NCBI GenBank assembly: GCA_025060505.1
Contig: JANXBU010000001.1
Location: 1 to 64,000, forward strand
DNA length: 64,000 nucleotides
Reading direction: 5' to 3'
From: Candidatus Calescibacterium sp.
GTDB lineage: Bacteria; Calescibacteriota; Calescibacteriia; Calescibacteriales; Calescibacteriaceae
Of this stretch, positions 734 to 10,370 are shown piece after piece. Under the pieces are notes generated by a model. That model ran no database searches and was not told where the DNA came from. It was given only the letters and a program-made list of their open reading frames with translations. Within the stretch, counting starts at the first letter, position 1. Each line of letters opens with the position of its first letter. Position numbers and translations under genes: made by a program.

Positions 734-1594
734 TCAAAATTTTTTCATGCATCTGGTCAATGCCTGGAACATAACTCTTTCATCTGGATATATTGATGTC
801 CATATTTTAAAACTCATAGCTCCTTGAAGAACGAGCATCCATCTTCCGTCCTGTACATTGTATCCAAGTTCTTTTGATATACTCAAAAACTTGGTTGTTA
901 CATATACCGTGTCAAAGAAAAGTATTTTCTTTTTTTTCTTGATTGGTTTGGGGTATATACCAATGATTTCAAAAAGATTTTCTCCTTTCCATCCTATGTT
1001 TGTTGCATTGACAATTATATCAAAGTCTTCAAAGTTTATTTTTTCTAATGTCTCAGTTCTTATTTCTGTTTGGTTTGAGAAGATCGACATTTCTTCTTTT
1101 ATTTTTTCTGCTTTCTCATAGGTTCTGTTAAATATAGTTATTTCCTTGGCTTTTGATCTGAGGGCGGAGTATACAATTGCTCTTGAAACACCACCAGCTC
1201 CTATTACCGCTATGCTGCTTCCTTGCAGTGAAAATCCACTTCTCTCAACTGCTTTTGAGAATCCGTATATGTCTGTATTGAAAGCTTTTATTTTATTTTC
1301 TTCAAAGTGAATCGTGTTGGCAGCTTTCACATTTTTGACATCCTCTGACATCTCATCTGCTATTCTGTATGCATTCTCTTTGTAAGGTAGAGTTACGTTC
1401 AGTCCTTTGAATCCAAGTTCTTTTGCACCAATAACAGCTTTTTCAAAATTGTCTACTTCGAAAGAAAGATATACACCTTTTATGCCGAGTTTTCTCATCA
1501 CAGCATTATGCATTGCCGGAGATAATGAATGAAAAGCAGGCTTTCCTAAAACTGCTAGGTATAATGGTGCGGACATAACGATATGATAACCCAT
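734..1594 (-). CDS. aroE: Shikimate dehydrogenase (NADP+)
   Basis: AroE reduces 3-dehydroshikimate to shikimate with NADPH in the cytoplasm, the fourth step of the chorismate (aromatic amino acid) pathway. The 286-residue protein has the family hallmarks in order: LGKPAFHSLSPAMHNAV near the N-terminus (the SxS substrate-binding motif), NVTLPYKENA with the catalytic lysine, the Rossmann nucleotide-binding loop VIGAGGVSRAI, and LVLQGAMSFKIWT near the C-terminus with the substrate-binding glutamine. The length is normal. Two starts are possible: the ATG at 1594, or an ATG six codons in at 1576 (MSAPLYLAV), which better matches the usual short N-terminus. Neither has a Shine-Dalgarno sequence. 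The gene is divergent from the phosphoketolase gene across about 100 bases, and no other aromatic pathway gene is in the window. Confidence 0.92.
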   Translation of the reverse strand: MGYHIVMSAPLYLAVLGKPAFHSLSPAMHNAVMRKLGIKGVYLSFEVDNFEKAVIGAKELGFKGLNVTLPYKENAYRIADEMSEDVKNVKAANTIHFEENKIKAFNTDIYGFSKAVERSGFSLQGSSIAVIGAGGVSRAIVYSALRSKAKEITIFNRTYEKAEKIKEEMSIFSNQTEIRTETLEKINFEDFDIIVNATNIGWKGENLFEIIGIYPKPIKKKKKILFFDTVYVTTKFLSISKELGYNVQDGRWMLVLQGAMSFKIWTSIYPDERVMFQALTRCMKKF

Positions 1595-1698
1595 TCGGTT
1601 AATCTAAATAAAAAACACACAATACATTTGAAATTTGTCTGTTTTCTTGAATAGGTTTTATTTTTATGAGATTATCCTAATATAGTTGTGATTAGTTT

Positions 1699-4101
1699 AT
1701 GTCAAATCTAAATCTTGAGCATAGGATAGATAAATTTTTCAGGGCCTGCTGTTATGTGTCTGCTGGTATGATATACCTTTGGGATAATCCGCTTTTAAGA
1801 GAGCCTCTCAAAAAGGAACATATAAAGAAAAGACTACTTGGGCACTGGGGAGCTTGTCCGAACATAATTTTATCTTATATACACTCAAATTTAGCTCTAA
1901 AAAGACATAATTTACAGGGTCTGTTTGTAGTTGGTCCAGGACACGGTGCGCCTGGGTATATATCTGTTGTTTATTTGGAAGGAACTTTGACTAAATATTA
2001 TACACAGTTCAGTCGAGATGAAATTGGACTAAAAAGGCTTTTTAGAGCTTTTTCTTTTCCGGGCGGACTCGGAAGCCACTGCACTCCTGAACTTCCCGGA
2101 ACAATTCAGGAGGGTGGGGAACTCGGATACACAATATCTCATGCTTTTGGAGCTGCATTTGATAATCCGGATCTATATGTTTTTGCTCTTGTTGGAGACG
2201 GAGAGGCTGAGACTGGACCTCTTGCAGCATCTTGGCATTCAAACAAATTCTTAAATCCTCAAAAAGATGGAGCAGTTGTTCCTATAATATCTCTTAACTC
2301 ATACAAGATAAATAATCCAACAATACTTTCGCGTATAAGTAGTGAAGAACTTTTTTCTCTTTTTAAAGGCTACGGTTATGATGCTGTTTTGGTTGAAGGT
2401 TCAGATTCTCTGGAAGTTCATCAGAAGATGATCGAAGCTATGGACTGGAGTATATCAAGAATAAAAGATGTAAAAGCTTCCGGAAAAGTGTTTCGTCCAT
2501 TCTGGCCAATTATAATACTCAAAACTCCCAAGGGTTGGACTGCTCCAAAAAAATTCAAAAATAGATTCATAGAAGGATATTGGAGGTCTCATCAGGTTCC
2601 TTTCAGTGATGTACATGAAAATCCGGAATCTCTTAGAATAATTGAGCAATGGCTAATGAGCTATGAACCACAAAAGTTATTTGATCAGAATGGCAAAATT
2701 ATAGACGATCTTTCTGATCTCATACCTGAAAGCGGCAAAAGATTAAGCGATACTCCTTACTCAAATGGAGGTATCTTACGCGTTCCCCTGAATCTCCCAG
2801 ACCCATCTTCTGTTTGTGTTGATGTTAGGAAACCTTGTCTTCATTTCGTGAGCAATACACTTATAACAGGATACTACCTTAAAGATGTTATTTCAAAAAA
2901 CAGAAAAAATTTTAGGGTTTTCGGACCAGATGAAACATCGTCAAACAAGCTATATCCTGTTTTTCATTTTGGAAAGACTTGGGTTGCTCAAACGGCTCCA
3001 GAAGATATTGATGAAGGATATCTTGATCCAGAGGGAAGAGTTATGGAAATACTCTCAGAGCATACAGTTGAGGGTTGGCTTGAAGGATATATCTTGACGG
3101 GAAGACATGGAATTTTAAACACCTACGAAGGTTTTGCTCCGATAATTTCTTCTATGGTAAATCAGTTTGGAAAATGGCTTGATATATCTTCTGATATTCC
3201 CTGGAGATTACCGATAAGTTCTCTGAATCTTATTTTAACATCTGTGGTGTGGAGACAAGATCACAATGGTTTTACTCATCAGGATCCGGGTTTTATAACC
3301 AGCATAGTAGATAAATGGCCTAATGTTGTTCGAGTTTATTTCCCACCGGATGCAAACACTTTGCTTGCAATGATTCATTTCTGTCTTCAAACCACAGATC
3401 GTATAAACATCATCGTTGTTGATAAGCAAGTTCATCCTCAATATTTGAGTTGGGAAGATGCTCAAAGACACGTTATAAAGGGTATAGGAATTTTTGAGTT
3501 TGCGAGTAATAACTTAGATTCTGAACCAGATGTTGTCTTGGCTTCCTGTGGTGATATACCTACAAAGGAAGCGGTCGCTGCTTCGCTGATTCTGAGAGAG
3601 TTTTTCCCAGATATATCTATAAGATTTGTCAATGTTGTAAATCTTTTCAAACTTACCCCGGAAAATGAGCACCCGGATGGGCTGCCAGATAGATACTTCG
3701 ATGATTACTTCACAACAGATAAACCAATAATATTCAATTTTCACGGATATCCGTGGCTTATTCACAGATTAACTTACAGAAGAAAGAATCATAGAAATCT
3801 GCATGTTAGAGGTTATAGGGAAAACAGAAAATTTGGAATAGATGCTTCGCATATTCAATCTTTCCTGAAAGGAAGAGGTGGGATTATGACTCCGCTTCAG
3901 CTTGCTATAATAAACCAGATCGATAGGTTTAGTATTGCAATAGATTGTCTTCAGCGGGCTGAACGTTTTCGGAAAGATGCAGGAAGAGTTGTTGACACTT
4001 TGAAAAACATGCAGATAGATTGTCTGAATTATGCATACAAAAACGGAACAGACCATCCAGATTTCCAAGATGAGGTATTTTTTAGCTCTAAATTACGGTA
4101 G
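1699..4101 (+). CDS. xfp: Phosphoketolase (xylulose 5-phosphate/fructose 6-phosphate)
   Basis: This thiamine-diphosphate enzyme cleaves xylulose 5-phosphate (and often fructose 6-phosphate) with inorganic phosphate to give acetyl phosphate plus glyceraldehyde 3-phosphate (or erythrose 4-phosphate). The 800-residue protein has the full-length family architecture. Visible signatures are LGHWGACPN and VGPGHGAPG (residues about 48-86), SHCTPELPG (127-134), EGGELGYTISHAFGA (about 138-152), GDGEAETGPLAASWHSNKF (thiamine-diphosphate region), EGWLEGYILTGRHG, SVVWRQDHNGFTHQDPGF and GRGGIMTPLQLA. By offset from the Bifidobacterium enzyme, the active-site histidines 64, 97 and 142 correspond to H49, H82 and H127 and are all present. 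Substrate preference cannot be told from sequence. The 3' end overlaps the acetate kinase gene by 32 bases, so the two are surely co-transcribed and form an acetyl-phosphate-to-ATP branch. Confidence 0.96.
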   Translation: MSNLNLEHRIDKFFRACCYVSAGMIYLWDNPLLREPLKKEHIKKRLLGHWGACPNIILSYIHSNLALKRHNLQGLFVVGPGHGAPGYISVVYLEGTLTKYYTQFSRDEIGLKRLFRAFSFPGGLGSHCTPELPGTIQEGGELGYTISHAFGAAFDNPDLYVFALVGDGEAETGPLAASWHSNKFLNPQKDGAVVPIISLNSYKINNPTILSRISSEELFSLFKGYGYDAVLVEGSDSLEVHQKMIEAMDWSISRIKDVKASGKVFRPFWPIIILKTPKGWTAPKKFKNRFIEGYWRSHQVPFSDVHENPESLRIIEQWLMSYEPQKLFDQNGKIIDDLSDLIPESGKRLSDTPYSNGGILRVPLNLPDPSSVCVDVRKPCLHFVSNTLITGYYLKDVISKNRKNFRVFGPDETSSNKLYPVFHFGKTWVAQTAPEDIDEGYLDPEGRVMEILSEHTVEGWLEGYILTGRHGILNTYEGFAPIISSMVNQFGKWLDISSDIPWRLPISSLNLILTSVVWRQDHNGFTHQDPGFITSIVDKWPNVVRVYFPPDANTLLAMIHFCLQTTDRINIIVVDKQVHPQYLSWEDAQRHVIKGIGIFEFASNNLDSEPDVVLASCGDIPTKEAVAASLILREFFPDISIRFVNVVNLFKLTPENEHPDGLPDRYFDDYFTTDKPIIFNFHGYPWLIHRLTYRRKNHRNLHVRGYRENRKFGIDASHIQSFLKGRGGIMTPLQLAIINQIDRFSIAIDCLQRAERFRKDAGRVVDTLKNMQIDCLNYAYKNGTDHPDFQDEVFFSSKLR

Positions 4102-5167
4102 CTCTTCTCTGAAATACGCTTTTTTTGATGAGAATCTGAGAGAAATAAGGAGAGGAAATTTCGTTTCATATACCTATGAGGATTTTAAGAAATCAATTTT
4201 TGAGTTGAGAGAACAAATTTTTTCTATTGTTTCCACAGAAAATTTATATTTGGCTCACAGATTTGTTCATGGTGCTCAGAATACAAGTCCTTTAACTTTG
4301 AACGATGAAAACTTGAAGATCCTTGAAAAACTCGTGGAGTTAAATCCACTTCACAATAAAATATCTTTTTTCTGTATTCAGATTTCTCTTGAACTTTTTC
4401 CATTGAGCAAACATTTTGCTATATTTGATACAGATTTTCACAGATCTATCCCTCCCGAAGCTCAGATATATGGTCTGGATTTAGATTTGTACAAAGAAGG
4501 AATTAGAAAATATGGATTTCATGGAATTTCCTACTCATATATTTTAAGAAGAATCAAGGAGATACTGGGGAAGCAAAAACCTAACATTATAGCTCTTCAT
4601 CTTGGATCTGGGTCAAGTGCTTGTGTGATAAAAGAAGGAGTTTCTATAGAAACATCTATGGGTTTTAGTCCGCTTGAAGGTTTGATTATGTCAACAAGAC
4701 CAGGAGATGTAGATCCTGGTTTGATTGTCTTTCTCATCGAAAAAGGAATGTCTGCGGATCAGATCAAAAATTATCTTTACTACAGCTGCGGAATAAAAGG
4801 TCTTTGCGGAACGAAAGATTTTCGTGAGCTTATCAGGAGATTAAAAGATGGAGATAAGACCGCTGAGCTCGCTTTCAGGGCCTTTGTTCAGAGAATACTA
4901 AAATATGTAGGTTATTACTGGATTTTGATTGAGGGAGATGTAGATGCTTTGGTTTTTTCTGGGGGTATAGGTGAAAATAGCCCGGAGGTCAGGTATGCTG
5001 TTTGTGAGAAATTGAGAAAATTTGGAGTAGTAATAGATCAAGAATTGAACTCTCAGAATACGGAGCGAATAAGTGATTTAGGAAGTAAAGTGGGTGTTTT
5101 TGTTATAAGAACCAATGAGGAACTCGAGATGATATTAAAGATTTTGGAGTCGGAAGACATAAAATAG
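4070..5167 (+). CDS. ackA: Acetate kinase, divergent, paired with phosphoketolase
   Basis: Acetate kinase transfers phosphate from acetyl phosphate to ADP, yielding ATP and acetate. The start is the ATG at 4070 (MRYFLALNYGSSSLKYAFFD); an upstream in-frame ATG at 4031 only adds residues inside the phosphoketolase gene. The 365-residue product is shorter than the usual roughly 400. Family motifs are recognisable but altered: NYGSSSLKY for NSGSSSLKF, HRFVHGA for HRVVHGG, DTDFHRSIPPEA for DTAFHQTMP, KYGFHGISYSYI for RYGFHGTSHxYV, HLGSGSSACV for HLGNGASxxA, SMGFSPLEGLIMSTRPGDVDP, and FSGGIGENS. The arginine and aspartate of the RPGDVDP block and the FHG histidine are kept, so activity is likely. 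Butyrate kinase is a relative, but the pairing with phosphoketolase and the motifs favour acetate. Confidence 0.92.
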   Translation: MRYFLALNYGSSSLKYAFFDENLREIRRGNFVSYTYEDFKKSIFELREQIFSIVSTENLYLAHRFVHGAQNTSPLTLNDENLKILEKLVELNPLHNKISFFCIQISLELFPLSKHFAIFDTDFHRSIPPEAQIYGLDLDLYKEGIRKYGFHGISYSYILRRIKEILGKQKPNIIALHLGSGSSACVIKEGVSIETSMGFSPLEGLIMSTRPGDVDPGLIVFLIEKGMSADQIKNYLYYSCGIKGLCGTKDFRELIRRLKDGDKTAELAFRAFVQRILKYVGYYWILIEGDVDALVFSGGIGENSPEVRYAVCEKLRKFGVVIDQELNSQNTERISDLGSKVGVFVIRTNEELEMILKILESEDIK

Positions 5168-5217
5168 CCTGATATCTTGTTGTAAAATTGATAAATATTA
5201 AGAGAAGAATCAACAAA

Positions 5218-6378
5218 ATGATTGGTTTCTTATTATTTTTGATTTCTATGTGGAGCGAAAGATTTTTTGATTACATTGTTTTAAGGGCTGAGGAATTTGG
5301 CCTGAAATCTAGGGCGCAAGATGTTTATGTATTCTCTATTTCGGAGAATCAGTTTTACTTGATTCCTTCTCAAATAGACGAAGTAGAGTACGTGAATGAT
5401 AAAAAAACATACAAGATTGGTGATGGTTCATTTTCTGCAAAAGATGAATTGGTTTTTCCTGCAAGGTATTGTGGAGATAAAGCAGACAAAAAAGATATAT
5501 CAGGTTTTTTCGAGTCAGTGTTTGAGGTTGAGGTCTGGGATAGCCAAAATAGGAAATATTGTTACGTTGGGATAAAGAGCAAAGGAAGTCTTGCAAAATT
5601 TAAGAGAATTCAGCCAGAAGGTATAAAAGTTTCAAAGCGAGGAGATGAAATCATAGTATCACAGGACAACAGATATTCTATTTTTGATAATTTAAGACCT
5701 GTTGTAAAGTCAATATATATGAAAGATGATGGGGATTTCAAGCAAGTTTTTTTCGGTCTGAAAGCAGACATATATATAGAGCTTTTGAGTTTGATAAAGA
5801 TAAGAAAAACCGAACAAGATATGTATGCGAAGCCAGTTTTTATGAAGTCGGGAGATGTTAGAGCTTTGCGATCTATTCGTCCTTATGCTGATATTGGTTT
5901 TGGTATAAAGATTCCGGGAGCTGACACTACATCTTATATATACAAAGGTTTTATGTATGTTGAAAACGCCGTTCCGGTACCATTCAATTTGAAGTATTTA
6001 TCTCGTCAGGCTTATGCGAATATATATCTTTCTTTTTTGAGACCAAAAAAATTTGTTTCGGAGAAGAACAATATTGAGATCAATGCTCAGCCTACCACAG
6101 CAAATGAAGACGGACATATGTGGGGATTTATTGAAGGAGATAATTGGTCCGCTGCGTATTTCATAAAAGAACTTTCAGATATTCCTATAAAAAGGAGCCT
6201 GTATTATCAGGATGATGGTCGCAACTTTTATGTTGGTATAAGTTTGAACATTTTAGATCTACCGAAAGGTGAGCACAAATTTGCTTTGTATGGATTTTTC
6301 ATGCCTCCGGGAAACCTTGAAAGCGCAAAAAGAACAGTATTTGATCCATTAAGTTTTAAGATAAGAAAAGTGATATAG
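5218..6378 (+). CDS. Exported protein of unknown function
   Basis: I do not recognise this protein with confidence. The preferred start is the ATG at 5218 (MIGFLLFLISMWSERF), giving a short hydrophobic signal-like segment and a 386-residue product; a TTG at 5188 would add ten residues. After the signal comes a stretch reading FYLIPSQIDEVEY and then DELVFPARYCGDKADKKD. This pattern, an IPxQIDE phrase followed by DELVF, recurs in uncharacterised secreted proteins of Gram-negative bacteria as far as I recall, but I know no function for it. The rest looks beta-rich, without membrane helices or obvious catalytic motifs. It starts about 50 bases after acetate kinase on the same strand and may share its transcript, though no metabolic link is evident. 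Likely periplasmic or surface located. Confidence 0.6.
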   Translation: MIGFLLFLISMWSERFFDYIVLRAEEFGLKSRAQDVYVFSISENQFYLIPSQIDEVEYVNDKKTYKIGDGSFSAKDELVFPARYCGDKADKKDISGFFESVFEVEVWDSQNRKYCYVGIKSKGSLAKFKRIQPEGIKVSKRGDEIIVSQDNRYSIFDNLRPVVKSIYMKDDGDFKQVFFGLKADIYIELLSLIKIRKTEQDMYAKPVFMKSGDVRALRSIRPYADIGFGIKIPGADTTSYIYKGFMYVENAVPVPFNLKYLSRQAYANIYLSFLRPKKFVSEKNNIEINAQPTTANEDGHMWGFIEGDNWSAAYFIKELSDIPIKRSLYYQDDGRNFYVGISLNILDLPKGEHKFALYGFFMPPGNLESAKRTVFDPLSFKIRKVI

Positions 6379-6415
6379 ATCAGGTTTATTCTTTTTCAAG
6401 CTTTCTCAGTTTTTT

Positions 6416-9400
6416 CTAAACATTGAGCAGGTTAAATAGTATTCCTATGGTTTCTCCTCTATATACGAATAGATCTCGGATTTTCTCAGTTGGGATATTA
6501 TCTGTTCCTTCTTTCTCGATCACCATTCTTGTTATCTCGTTGAGGTGCTGAATTAGATCAGTTCTGTTATCAATTTCTTCTCTTATTCTTCCAAGTGATA
6601 TAGGACCTTCGTAAATCTTAGATATTTCTTCACTCAGGTTTATTATTCTGTCTCTTTTCATAACCGGAAGATTTTCTCTGAGGATTTGTACAAAATCTTT
6701 GCTTAATTTCCAGTAAACTATGTATTCTGTGTGTCTTTCCTTCGTTGATATTTCATCTATGGTTTGAATTATCTCTTGATATTCGTTTTGTTTAGCTGAA
6801 TCGTCAAAGATTCGGATAATCTTCAATGGTTTCTCAGGACCAGCTATTATGATAGCGTATCTTTCAAGAATTTCATCTACAATCAATATAGTTTTCCGTG
6901 GATTTTTTGGAACCTGATTTATCTTATCTTTTATTTTGACAGATATTGTATTGTATACGTAATATGCTAACCTCTTTGCTCCTCTTCTTATTTCCTCCAG
7001 AAGTTTGATGATTTTTTCTACTTTTTCTTTCAGCTTTTCTTTTTCCGAATCTGTTATATCAGGTTTTGATATTTTATCTTTAGCTTGAATATAGAAATTT
7101 ATAACTGTTCTAAGATATCCGAGAGAAAAATTCTTCAGAATAATTAAAAATACATTATCTGATAAACTCTGATTTTCTATGTCTTTCAGTAGGCTTTCAA
7201 AGCTTAGAATCTTGCTTCCTATGTTGAACTCTTCAAGTTTTCTCATCTTCTCAAGAAGACCAACTGGTTCGTTCTCCCAAATTAAGAGTGCTCTTGTTAT
7301 AGGGTACCTGAAGTATTTGATGAGGTCTTTTTGGACTCCATACTTGTAGTAAAGTATAGAAATTAGAAAGTCAAACGCATTATCAAATTTTTCTTCGTCT
7401 AAATCAATGTCATTAGGATCAATATCAGAGATGTATGCATATGTGAAAAATTTGTAGGTGTAATGTTCTTTTATGATTTTTTTCAATCCTTTCTGATCCT
7501 CGTCAAAGTCAAATATCTTCATCAATTTGGTTTTGTAGGTCTGGTCTGTTATGTCAAGGTCATATCTCACTCTTGGATCAAGGAACCAGAATATCTGGAA
7601 CGGTATTTCTTCCACAAGTTGCAATCCGCCTACTTCTTCAAAAAGGACTATCGTTTTGACATGACTTGTTAGTCTGGAGTATTTGATATCCTGATGCAGA
7701 TCATATTTCTGTCCAAATTCTCTACAAGCTCTTTTGTATTCTTTCAGAGCTTTTTCTATGTAGTATTGATGGATTATCCATCCATCTCCTTTTAATTTTT
7801 CTATTAATTTTTTAAGTTCATAGTTTGAAGATTGATTTATACTATATCTATTTGGCAGAAGACCAGATGAAACTTTTATTATTGAATTCTTTTCTTTATA
7901 ATTAATATGATTGTAGTTATAAGTTGAGAAGACTATAGAGGATTCTTCTATAGCGTCAATACAGCATACCATGTGTCTTTGAATCAGTTCTCTATGAGTT
8001 ATTGTGAAATCCTTTTCAACTATTTTAACCGTTTCGTTTTCTATTTTGAGCACGTATACTTCATAATCTCGATAAAGATTCTTAAGTGGTTCGTAGAATT
8101 CGAGCTCAAAGTTGTCTTTTGGTATCTTTCTTATATCCTTGTCATCTAATTTGTTTTTTATTGTTCTGATCAGATCAGAAGGATTAGATATATACTTGCC
8201 GTAAAGCTCAAGAATTTTGTTTTCTGGATTCAGTAAGACTGATTCTTGTGGAGCATACTTTTTCCAGGTTACAAAATCTTCCACAATGGAAAGATCATAT
8301 TCTGAGATAGGTATGATTACGGTCTCTGTTCTTTGTATGTTTTTTCTTCTACCTTTTCTTCCCTCTTTCTGCATAAACTCATTCTTAGATATGGGAAGTC
8401 CGACATGTATTGTTCTTGTGACACTTCCTATGTCTATTCCCTGCATCAACGTTTTCACAGTTATAGCTACTCTTATTTTTCCATCTCTCAATCCTTTCTC
8501 TATTTTAATCCTTTCTGAGCCTGGCACTGATGAGTGGTGTACTGCTATTTTTTCGGATACTATTTCTGTTTCTTTCTGATTGCTTGGTATTTCAGATATG
8601 TTTGCCTGCTGGAGAGAAGTCTGGATATGCTCCTTTGTTTTGCTGTATATTGTATTGGCTTTGTCTCTTGATTTTGCAAAGACGATAGTTGTCTCCGGTA
8701 GTTCTGCACATTTCAGGACTATCTGCTGAACCAACATTTCATTTTGCTTTAATATGTCTTTCATGACGGAGTGGATAGAACTACTATTGTTGTCTGATTT
8801 TGATTTCGCTTCCCGGGTTTTCTTCCCATAAACAATGTAAATATGATTTTCTGGTCTATATGATTTTCCTTCTATGATTTTAAAATCTTTGTTTGGGAAG
8901 AAGTCTCTTATAGCTTCAGCATTTGATACGGTAGCTCCAAGGAAAATCAGTCTTATTTTCCTTTGTTCTGAATCAAACAGATCAAGCGCTTTCTTTACGA
9001 GGTATAGGAGAACAGTTGCTCTGGAGCTACCATAAAAATCCAGCTCATCTACGACTATGATTTTCAATTTTGTTTTGAAAAAATTGATAAGTTTGTGATA
9101 TTTTCCGTTTTTGTATTTATGAAGGACATCTAAAAATATTTCTGGATTGGTCAGTATCGTTGATGCGTGAGATATATCATGATGGATATACATATCCGAT
9201 GTATCTCCGTCATATTTGATAAGACTTCCTCTGTAGATTTGGTCTTTCTCATTGAATTCTACACCCAAATTGTTTTCCTTATAGTATTCTGCTATTCTCT
9301 TGATCTGGTCGCCTGTTAGAGCTTTTGTTGGGTATATTGCAACAACGCCATAGTTTTTGTACATCTTTTGTTGTGATATGGCGTATGATGTCCATATCTC

Positions 9401-10354
9401 TGTTTTTCCGGAACCAGTCTCAGACTTTACAATTATGTTTTTACCTTGCTTAAGGAGTTCCAGTGCGATTTTTTGGTGTTCATACATTTCTAATTCAGAG
9501 ATTTTACCTTCAAGGTTTTTCAAAAGATCTTTGAACTTGATCTGCAATCTGTGGACAATCTGAGATTCCTCCTTGTGCTCCTTGTAGTTTATATCAAGAC
9601 CAAATGGAAATTGATTGTTCAGTTTAGAGAAAGAATTTGTGATTTGAAGCGGTTGTTCCTGCTCAGGTTTGGTATATTGTTTCTTTTGTTTATTTTCATA
9701 TTCTTTTTCTTGTGATTCTTTTCTTTGTTCTGTATTATTTTCTTTTTGTTCTATGTTGTCTTGTTTTTTATCAGATACAGTTTTCTGATAAATTTCTTTC
9801 GGGATATATTTTGTATAGGATACAGTTTTTTGATAGAACTCTTTCAGGATATCTTTTACATAATCATTCTGTGCCGGGATCATTCCGTCGTCGTCTTTTC
9901 TATACGGATCCGCTCCTTTTGCTATAAGTAGCTTTATTATGTTAAGGCATTTTTCTTTTTTCTCTCGCTGACTCTCGGATATTTTTTCGAGGTTCATTAC
10001 GGCATAGTGAAGTGGAGTTTTTCCTACATCTTTGTAGCCTTCTCCCTTGTCTGGTGTGTTTATTTCAGATCCGTTTTGAATGAGAAGATCTGCTATCTCA
10101 TAGTTTCCATGTATTATAGCATAGTGCAGGGGTAGTCTGTTTTTTAAGTCTTTGAGATTTACATCGGATCCATTTTTTATCAGCAGATTTGCAACGTAGA
10201 GTGCGTCTTTCAGTTTTGGCTCAGGAGCAGCAGCAACTACATGCAAAGGAGTTGTATTGGTTTCAGCATCTCTTATGTTTACATTGAACCCATTTCTGAT
10301 CATGTGTTCAATCTCTATTACGTTCAGTTCAAGAAAAATCCTGTACCATTCCAT
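6416..10354 (-). CDS. Ankyrin-repeat / SF2 (DExD-type) helicase fusion with long unknown C-terminus
   Basis: The 1312-residue protein joins three parts. Residues about 15-175 are four to five ankyrin repeats (NGFNVNIRDAETNTTPLHVV, NRLPLHYAIIHGNYEIADLL, KTPLHYAV, LLIAKGADPYRKDDDG). Residues about 180-240 are a K/E/Q-rich, probably disordered linker. Residues about 285-720 are a superfamily 2 helicase with Walker A SETGSGKT (311-318), YPTKALTGDQ (Ia), motif II VVDELDF (D436, E437, D439), GATVSN (III), TIVFAKSRDKA (IV), TLMQGIDIG (V) and QKEGRKGRR (VI). The last 590 residues match nothing I know and lack the four-cysteine cluster of MrfA/YprA-type helicases. The ATG at 10354 is preceded by GAGGGGC at good spacing. 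The gene stands alone, facing away from rpsL. It is probably an ATP-dependent nucleic-acid translocase; a defence role is conceivable but unproven. Confidence 0.85.
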   Translation of the reverse strand: MEWYRIFLELNVIEIEHMIRNGFNVNIRDAETNTTPLHVVAAAPEPKLKDALYVANLLIKNGSDVNLKDLKNRLPLHYAIIHGNYEIADLLIQNGSEINTPDKGEGYKDVGKTPLHYAVMNLEKISESQREKKEKCLNIIKLLIAKGADPYRKDDDGMIPAQNDYVKDILKEFYQKTVSYTKYIPKEIYQKTVSDKKQDNIEQKENNTEQRKESQEKEYENKQKKQYTKPEQEQPLQITNSFSKLNNQFPFGLDINYKEHKEESQIVHRLQIKFKDLLKNLEGKISELEMYEHQKIALELLKQGKNIIVKSETGSGKTEIWTSYAISQQKMYKNYGVVAIYPTKALTGDQIKRIAEYYKENNLGVEFNEKDQIYRGSLIKYDGDTSDMYIHHDISHASTILTNPEIFLDVLHKYKNGKYHKLINFFKTKLKIIVVDELDFYGSSRATVLLYLVKKALDLFDSEQRKIRLIFLGATVSNAEAIRDFFPNKDFKIIEGKSYRPENHIYIVYGKKTREAKSKSDNNSSSIHSVMKDILKQNEMLVQQIVLKCAELPETTIVFAKSRDKANTIYSKTKEHIQTSLQQANISEIPSNQKETEIVSEKIAVHHSSVPGSERIKIEKGLRDGKIRVAITVKTLMQGIDIGSVTRTIHVGLPISKNEFMQKEGRKGRRKNIQRTETVIIPISEYDLSIVEDFVTWKKYAPQESVLLNPENKILELYGKYISNPSDLIRTIKNKLDDKDIRKIPKDNFELEFYEPLKNLYRDYEVYVLKIENETVKIVEKDFTITHRELIQRHMVCCIDAIEESSIVFSTYNYNHINYKEKNSIIKVSSGLLPNRYSINQSSNYELKKLIEKLKGDGWIIHQYYIEKALKEYKRACREFGQKYDLHQDIKYSRLTSHVKTIVLFEEVGGLQLVEEIPFQIFWFLDPRVRYDLDITDQTYKTKLMKIFDFDEDQKGLKKIIKEHYTYKFFTYAYISDIDPNDIDLDEEKFDNAFDFLISILYYKYGVQKDLIKYFRYPITRALLIWENEPVGLLEKMRKLEEFNIGSKILSFESLLKDIENQSLSDNVFLIILKNFSLGYLRTVINFYIQAKDKISKPDITDSEKEKLKEKVEKIIKLLEEIRRGAKRLAYYVYNTISVKIKDKINQVPKNPRKTILIVDEILERYAIIIAGPEKPLKIIRIFDDSAKQNEYQEIIQTIDEISTKERHTEYIVYWKLSKDFVQILRENLPVMKRDRIINLSEEISKIYEGPISLGRIREEIDNRTDLIQHLNEITRMVIEKEGTDNIPTEKIRDLFVYRGETIGILFNLLNV

Positions 10355-10363
10355 AATTATTTT

Positions 10364-10370
10364 GCCCCTC
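10364..10370 (-). promoter_or_regulatory. Ribosome binding site of the ankyrin-helicase gene
   Basis: Read on the minus strand, GAGGGGC ends nine bases before the ATG at 10354. It supports that start, and therefore supports the ankyrin repeats being part of the protein rather than an artefact of a start placed too far upstream. Confidence 0.6.

Follow-up and report, generated by a model that had tools for sequence, protein, structure and literature searches.

Gene organization and domain architecture

The first 64,000 nucleotides of contig JANXBU010000001.1 of Candidatus Calescibacterium sp. (assembly GCA_025060505.1), here referred to as the window, harbour at positions 6416-10354 an open reading frame for a large ankyrin-repeat helicase. 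It is read from the minus strand, where it comprises 1312 codons without a stop, and translation of the plus strand yields only stops; the original prediction had the coordinates right and left the strand unstated. Ankyrin repeats, a K/E/Q linker, a superfamily 2 (SF2) helicase core and a long C-terminus follow each other as described there, and all five motifs quoted are present (Table 1). The protein belongs to an undescribed, mainly archaeal branch of a known kind of SF2 helicase, the MrfA-like one, and is set apart by its ankyrin fusion.

The ankyrin and helicase parts form one polypeptide, since no internal ATG occurs between residues 158 and 290 and there is no sign that the frame changes. 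An assembly error joining two separate genes, considered in the original prediction, is not indicated: there is one frame without internal start, and the only repeat at the border is a 45-nucleotide (nt) duplication in the linker. Scans for promoters and terminators inside the gene remained at chance level.

Table 1. Features of the ankyrin-helicase gene (window positions; residues refer to the encoded protein)
Feature	Position	Strand	Basis
Likely ribosome-binding site, GAGGGG	10365..10370	-	Direct sequence reading, 11-16 nt 5' of ATG
Coding sequence, 1312 amino acids (ankyrin, linker, MrfA-like SF2 helicase, family-specific C-terminus)	6419..10354	-	Stop codon 6416-6418; single open frame, 1324 codons
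Ankyrin repeats, residues ~9-175, comprising about 3 complete repeats and the caps	9830..10330	-	Pfam Ank_2 E 1.5e-21, Ank E 6.6e-17; PDB matches to designed and natural ankyrins
45-nt tandem duplication, its 2 copies sharing 80% identity and encoding YQKTVS twice where the ankyrins meet the linker	9764..9853	-	
Low-complexity K/E/Q linker, residues 176-250, only in the window protein	9605..9829	-	Sequence; homologues begin after the linker
N-terminal family segment, residues 251-290, start of homology to archaeal members; predicted strand before RecA1	9485..9604	-	Alignment, model
RecA1 domain, residues ~291-500	8855..9484	-	Pfam DEAD E 3.8e-19, residues 292-480; model
Motif I, SETGSGKT, residues 311-318	9401..9424	-	G314, G316, K317, T318 invariant in 36 sequences
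Motif II, DELD, residues 436-439, within DELDFYG	9038..9049	-	D436, E437, D439, F440, Y441, G442 invariant in 36 sequences
Motif III, GATVSN, residues 473-478	8921..8938	-	A474 invariant
RecA2 domain, residues ~550-690	8285..8707	-	Pfam Helicase_C E 8.3e-11, residues 560-670
Motif V, VKTLMQGIDIG, residues 633-643	8426..8458	-	T635, G639, D641 invariant
Motif VI, QKEGRKGRR, residues 662-670	8345..8371	-	Q662, E664-R669 invariant
Family-specific region, residues ~700-1115, probable equivalent of the MrfA OB-CON-DUF1998 canopy without zinc cysteines	7010..8257	-	Foldseek, invariant residues
Last ~160 residues, fold predicted to be RNase H-like (RuvX/YqgF-like) with additional helices	6419..6907	-	Foldseek; catalytic acids not conserved

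Helicase core and predicted structure

Judged from the sequence, the motor motifs for ATP binding and hydrolysis are intact in both RecA domains. The core is closest to YprA: profile-profile alignment (hhalign) against canonical YprA proteins spanned the core, reached into the beginning of the winged helix and had a probability of 100% (E 2.1e-54), and the top PDB sequence match was YprA/MrfA (E 8.2e-41). An AlphaFold2 model built on an alignment of 36 sequences (predicted template modelling score 0.84, predicted local distance difference test 77) predicts a strand at residues 256-262 ahead of RecA1 and likewise has MrfA as its top fold; in the MrfA/YprA family, an N-terminal strand (NTR) preceding RecA1 is inserted into the sheet of RecA2. 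In the Foldseek search with the whole model, four MrfA chains rank first (E 7.7e-29 to 1.3e-18, template modelling score by target, TMt, 0.60-0.66), with 6znp_A as the best match (E 7.7e-29, 937 columns); the alignment of the whole model with MrfA over this length has a TMt of 0.63-0.66. The next fold is 14 orders of magnitude behind, Brr2 and further helicases of the Ski2-like type reaching about 1e-14. The assignment to the large SF2 helicases of the MrfA/YprA kind, made in the original prediction, is supported.

Resemblance to MrfA/YprA/SftH (COG1205; PDB 6znp) also includes a large C-terminal part lying over the motor in the predicted model and a context-free gene position in most genomes. 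The window protein differs by the absence of the four-cysteine MZB/DUF1998 cluster, by DELD instead of DELH as motif II, by the additional RNase H-like end and the N-terminal ankyrins, and by a C-terminus without profile-detectable homology. Since the four-cysteine zinc cluster is a defining YprA feature, the core is described here as MrfA-like and the protein is not classed as YprA; the lack of zinc cysteines and the DELD motif had been correctly recognized before. Loss of the zinc cluster was also reported for the Dpd helicase (PMC12458937).

The SF2 core is likewise related to the YprA defence branch, i.e., DISARM DrmA and the helicases of Dpd, Druantia and ARMADA, but these belong to conserved operons that also encode methylases, ATPases or nucleases, and no such partner accompanies the window gene. 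The ARMADA/Druantia branch of YprA is marked by a BrxA-like insert behind RecA1 and by modules that bind zinc; CxxC modules are absent from the window protein. The best PADLOC profile was SngC of Shango (E 9.7e-30, residues 298-673); membership in Shango was rejected, as the match is limited to the core. No Shango partners are encoded nearby. In case of Lhr helicases, the likeness is confined to the SF2 core (NCBIfam ligase-associated DEXH, E 9e-23; fold), but the Lhr-type models of NCBIfam score far below their cut-offs and no Lhr domain 4 match follows Helicase_C (Pfam, E 10).

Beyond residue 670, no Pfam match was obtained even at E 10; the C-terminus has no match among PDB sequences (best E 0.78) and none in tblastn searches of plasmids and phages. 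The original prediction of a tail matching no domain therefore stands with respect to databases, but not in the sense of an orphan: as deduced from alignment, the ~590-residue tail is conserved across a whole archaeal family (see below), with F, Y, Y, P, Y, Y and E as invariant residues. Based on the model, residues ~700-1115 probably correspond to the canopy of MrfA, which there follows a helical/winged domain, but lack its zinc cysteines. For the C-terminal end, Foldseek retrieved RuvX (7ess_A, probability 1.00, TMt 0.50, E 0.026) and YqgF (7w89); when the tail is searched by fold, Holliday-junction resolvases of viruses also come up repeatedly. All RNase H-like matches have E values above 1e-3.

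Archaeal family, phylogeny and gene neighbourhoods

Peptide-pattern searches with the window protein in viral and genome contigs gave no match. With a DNA pattern for DELDFYG (motif II) as search key, 101 stretches matched in genome contigs, about 60 of which encode relatives, many of them aligning from residue ~253 to ~1040 (tblastn); seven pattern matches in viral contigs proved not to be homologous. The match in Pyrobaculum oguniense (L072:145-3252) extends over residues 253-1310 (E 2.9e-145). About 35 complete or near-complete members of roughly 1030 amino acids each were aligned with the window protein, which shares 37% identity with the P. oguniense protein and 23-30% with the remaining ones, with dozens of core residues being invariant. 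Over residues ~250-1312, the window protein has the same length and motif order as the family in Thermoproteota, and it displays all full-length family features (DELDFYG, Q[KR]EGRKGRR and the invariant C-terminal F/Y/P/E residues). Pfam, NCBIfam and PADLOC recognize the archaeal relatives, too, only at the helicase core; none of these libraries names the family, in agreement with the undescribed nature proposed originally.

The ankyrins set the window protein apart. Ankyrin-like repeats were found in none of the 67 family members whose N-terminus could be read; the segment before motif I has a median length of 85 residues in them versus about 310 in the window protein, and no other Ank_2 domain occurs elsewhere in five genomes of the window's phylum; for the N-terminal extension of the protein L071 (1233 amino acids), an ankyrin identity was ruled out. 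The ankyrin-helicase order is therefore not recurrent among everything searched, which did not include metagenome contigs, so that the recurrent architecture considered originally is not supported, and the N-terminus including the linker fits a lineage-specific fusion when judged by sequence. Of the finding that the original prediction named as its refutation, a characterized helicase family with ankyrin-free homologues, one half applies: ankyrins are missing from all homologues checked, but the family is uncharacterized and no known housekeeping one.

Of 300 Thermoproteota genomes, 79 gave strong, mostly full-length matches to the family profile, with a single copy in almost every case. Among 386 sampled bacterial genomes, only the window's own genome contains a member; weak matches to the C-terminus (E 0.001-0.009) in these genomes were dropped, since the full-length profile finds nothing there. 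The family is absent from four relatives of the same taxonomic family. One other bacterial metagenome-assembled genome (L068, from a seven-genome phylum) carries it, and a further sample of 385 genomes added none. In the phylogeny, the window protein groups with L068, P. oguniense and G564 in a clade of its own (Shimodaira-Hasegawa-like approximate likelihood ratio test, SH-aLRT, 99) apart from the archaeal main clade, which is single-copy and more conserved; the same clade is recovered from the core (SH-aLRT 98) and from the C-terminus (96) alone. The codon usage of the gene is the least host-like of 19 genes compared (score 0.093 versus 0.137-0.216 for 18 window genes). Rarity in bacteria, clustering with archaeal members and atypical codon usage support horizontal acquisition of the gene. 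An empty site beside rpsL was not demonstrable in the four relatives, where synteny is not kept. In the rpsL region of one genome (L030, G002), the S12 match contains one in-frame TAA, probably because the match extends past the gene end.

In the window, the gene stands by itself: rpsL-rpsG diverge from it, and a gene for a 396-residue protein without Pfam match (5188-6375, plus strand) converges with it. Its neighbours (aroE, phosphoketolase, acetate kinase, rpsL, rpsG, glyS, trmD, rpoB) have housekeeping functions, and the defence-island position considered originally is not supported. The phosphoketolase and acetate kinase genes (1699-5164, plus strand) overlap by about 70 nt, which suggests a translationally coupled phosphoketolase pathway. 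A separate match to a DUF499 ATPase (E 9.4e-35; G000:C115:1746-2618) is located on another contig of the window's genome, far from the helicase gene.

The archaeal main clade shares no common neighbourhood beyond close relatives. In P. oguniense (L184/L201, 6773-19252), genes for a DUF1156 methylase, a DUF499-like ATPase, a 138-residue protein and a DrmD/HmaA-like SNF2 helicase are followed by the MrfA-like helicase gene in one direction, possibly constituting a five-gene restriction-like system. Gene sets centred on DUF499 were described as BREX-related restriction systems (PMC12839542). Elsewhere, a short (707 residues), divergent family member (L197, G681; 1020-8824) is encoded after a possible STAND NTPase of 1015 residues and two unknown genes; a gene of the TnpB type follows immediately downstream. 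At a further locus (L194, G465; 3100-9305), two genes for proteins of ~1030 residues are arranged in tandem; the second product is a family member, while the first does not cluster with the family.

Functional interpretation

The best explanation, which is held with moderate confidence, regards the protein as a horizontally acquired member of an uncharacterized, mainly thermoproteotal (crenarchaeal) family of MrfA/YprA-like SF2 helicases; the protein would be docked via its ankyrins and likely serves genome maintenance. About 250 N-terminal residues (ankyrins plus flexible linker) would have been gained in the window's lineage. The two RecA domains, with their motifs intact, should bind and hydrolyse ATP, and by analogy to MrfA/SftH the motor may walk in 3'-5' direction along single-stranded DNA and open duplexes. 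The C-terminal module is predicted to fold over the motor like the MrfA canopy, and the RNase H-like end may have a structural role or bind DNA junctions instead of acting as a nuclease. Considering the general role of ankyrins, the ankyrin arm, attached by a tether of ~75 residues, could dock the motor on a partner protein; the term sensor-helicase used in the original prediction is interpretative. The likely task would be recombination, repair or replication restart, with restriction of foreign DNA as the main alternative.

Several observations weigh against this explanation. Equivalence of the tail to the canopy is weak both at the sequence level, where hhalign gives 7%, and for the fold of the tail alone, with which Foldseek yields MrfA only at E 6.8e-3 (probability 0.95). 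The zinc cluster of MrfA is missing, with 4 cysteines in residues 241-1312, no CxxC and no match to MZB (PF09369). The subclade of the window protein is patchy, and its exact sister is unsure because of long branches. The literature searched contained no biochemistry for any family member; papers on crenarchaeal SftH, aLhr and helicases linked to the single-stranded DNA-binding protein treat COG1205 (with DUF1998) or Lhr, not the present family (PMC8301817, PMC10003305). Finally, the position of the P. oguniense relative directly downstream of the DUF1156-DUF499-SNF2 genes favours a defence function for the window's subclade.

A possible but less probable explanation, for which this neighbourhood also speaks, is a single-gene antiviral sensor-helicase, the ankyrins of which would sense a phage protein or anchor a defence complex and release the MrfA-like motor onto invading DNA. 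YprA-type helicases indeed play a central part in DISARM, Dpd, Druantia and ARMADA (PMC12458937), and the subclade is fast-evolving and horizontally spread besides being patchy. However, the window gene is alone among housekeeping genes, no viral, plasmid or phage homologue was found, the ankyrin part is not recurrent, and the operon is absent at all other loci examined including those of the subclade members L195, L196 and L185. Since the suggestive neighbourhood is that of one locus, genome maintenance is rated somewhat above defence.

Alternatively, the ankyrins might be a neutral or lineage-specific decoration of a protein that doubles for canonical YprA/SftH or Lhr in ordinary repair. The single-copy, context-free occurrence of the main clade in Thermoproteota, resembling the 'YprA only' repair branch (PMC12458937), agrees with this explanation, as does the coexistence of canonical YprA with MZB in the same archaea (L151, L152; L006 and L151 do match MZB). 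Yet it is improbable: the intact ankyrin frame with clear repeats implies either selection or a very recent origin, and in the window's host the gene in its entirety is an isolated acquisition. Slightly more doubtful still, one may speculate about a one-protein immune or genome-guarding device captured from hyperthermophilic archaea, in which an ankyrin receptor, a zinc-free MrfA-like translocase and a junction-binding RNase H-like end are combined, and a foreign or stress protein binding to the ankyrins would unleash the motor on DNA. An active RNase H-fold nuclease in the C-terminus, i.e., a helicase-nuclease cutting DNA junctions as the recurring resolvase-like matches might suggest and as the original prediction considered in the form of a nuclease/effector fold, is very improbable and was rejected, because no set of catalytic acids is conserved (in the window protein, S1186 and N1239 occupy positions acidic in >80% of the family, of which only 64% possess the strand-1 acid).

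The YprA/MrfA kind of helicase gains a further large branch that is zinc-free, has its own C-terminal module, is common in Thermoproteota and carries no name in Pfam, NCBIfam or PADLOC. The bacterial ankyrin fusion offers a handle for finding a partner protein by pull-down. As YprA-type motors power DNA repair (MrfAB) as well as several antiviral systems, this branch, context-free in most archaea but in Pyrobaculum adjoining a DUF1156-DUF499-SNF2 operon, lends itself to studying how immunity recruits helicases of repair.

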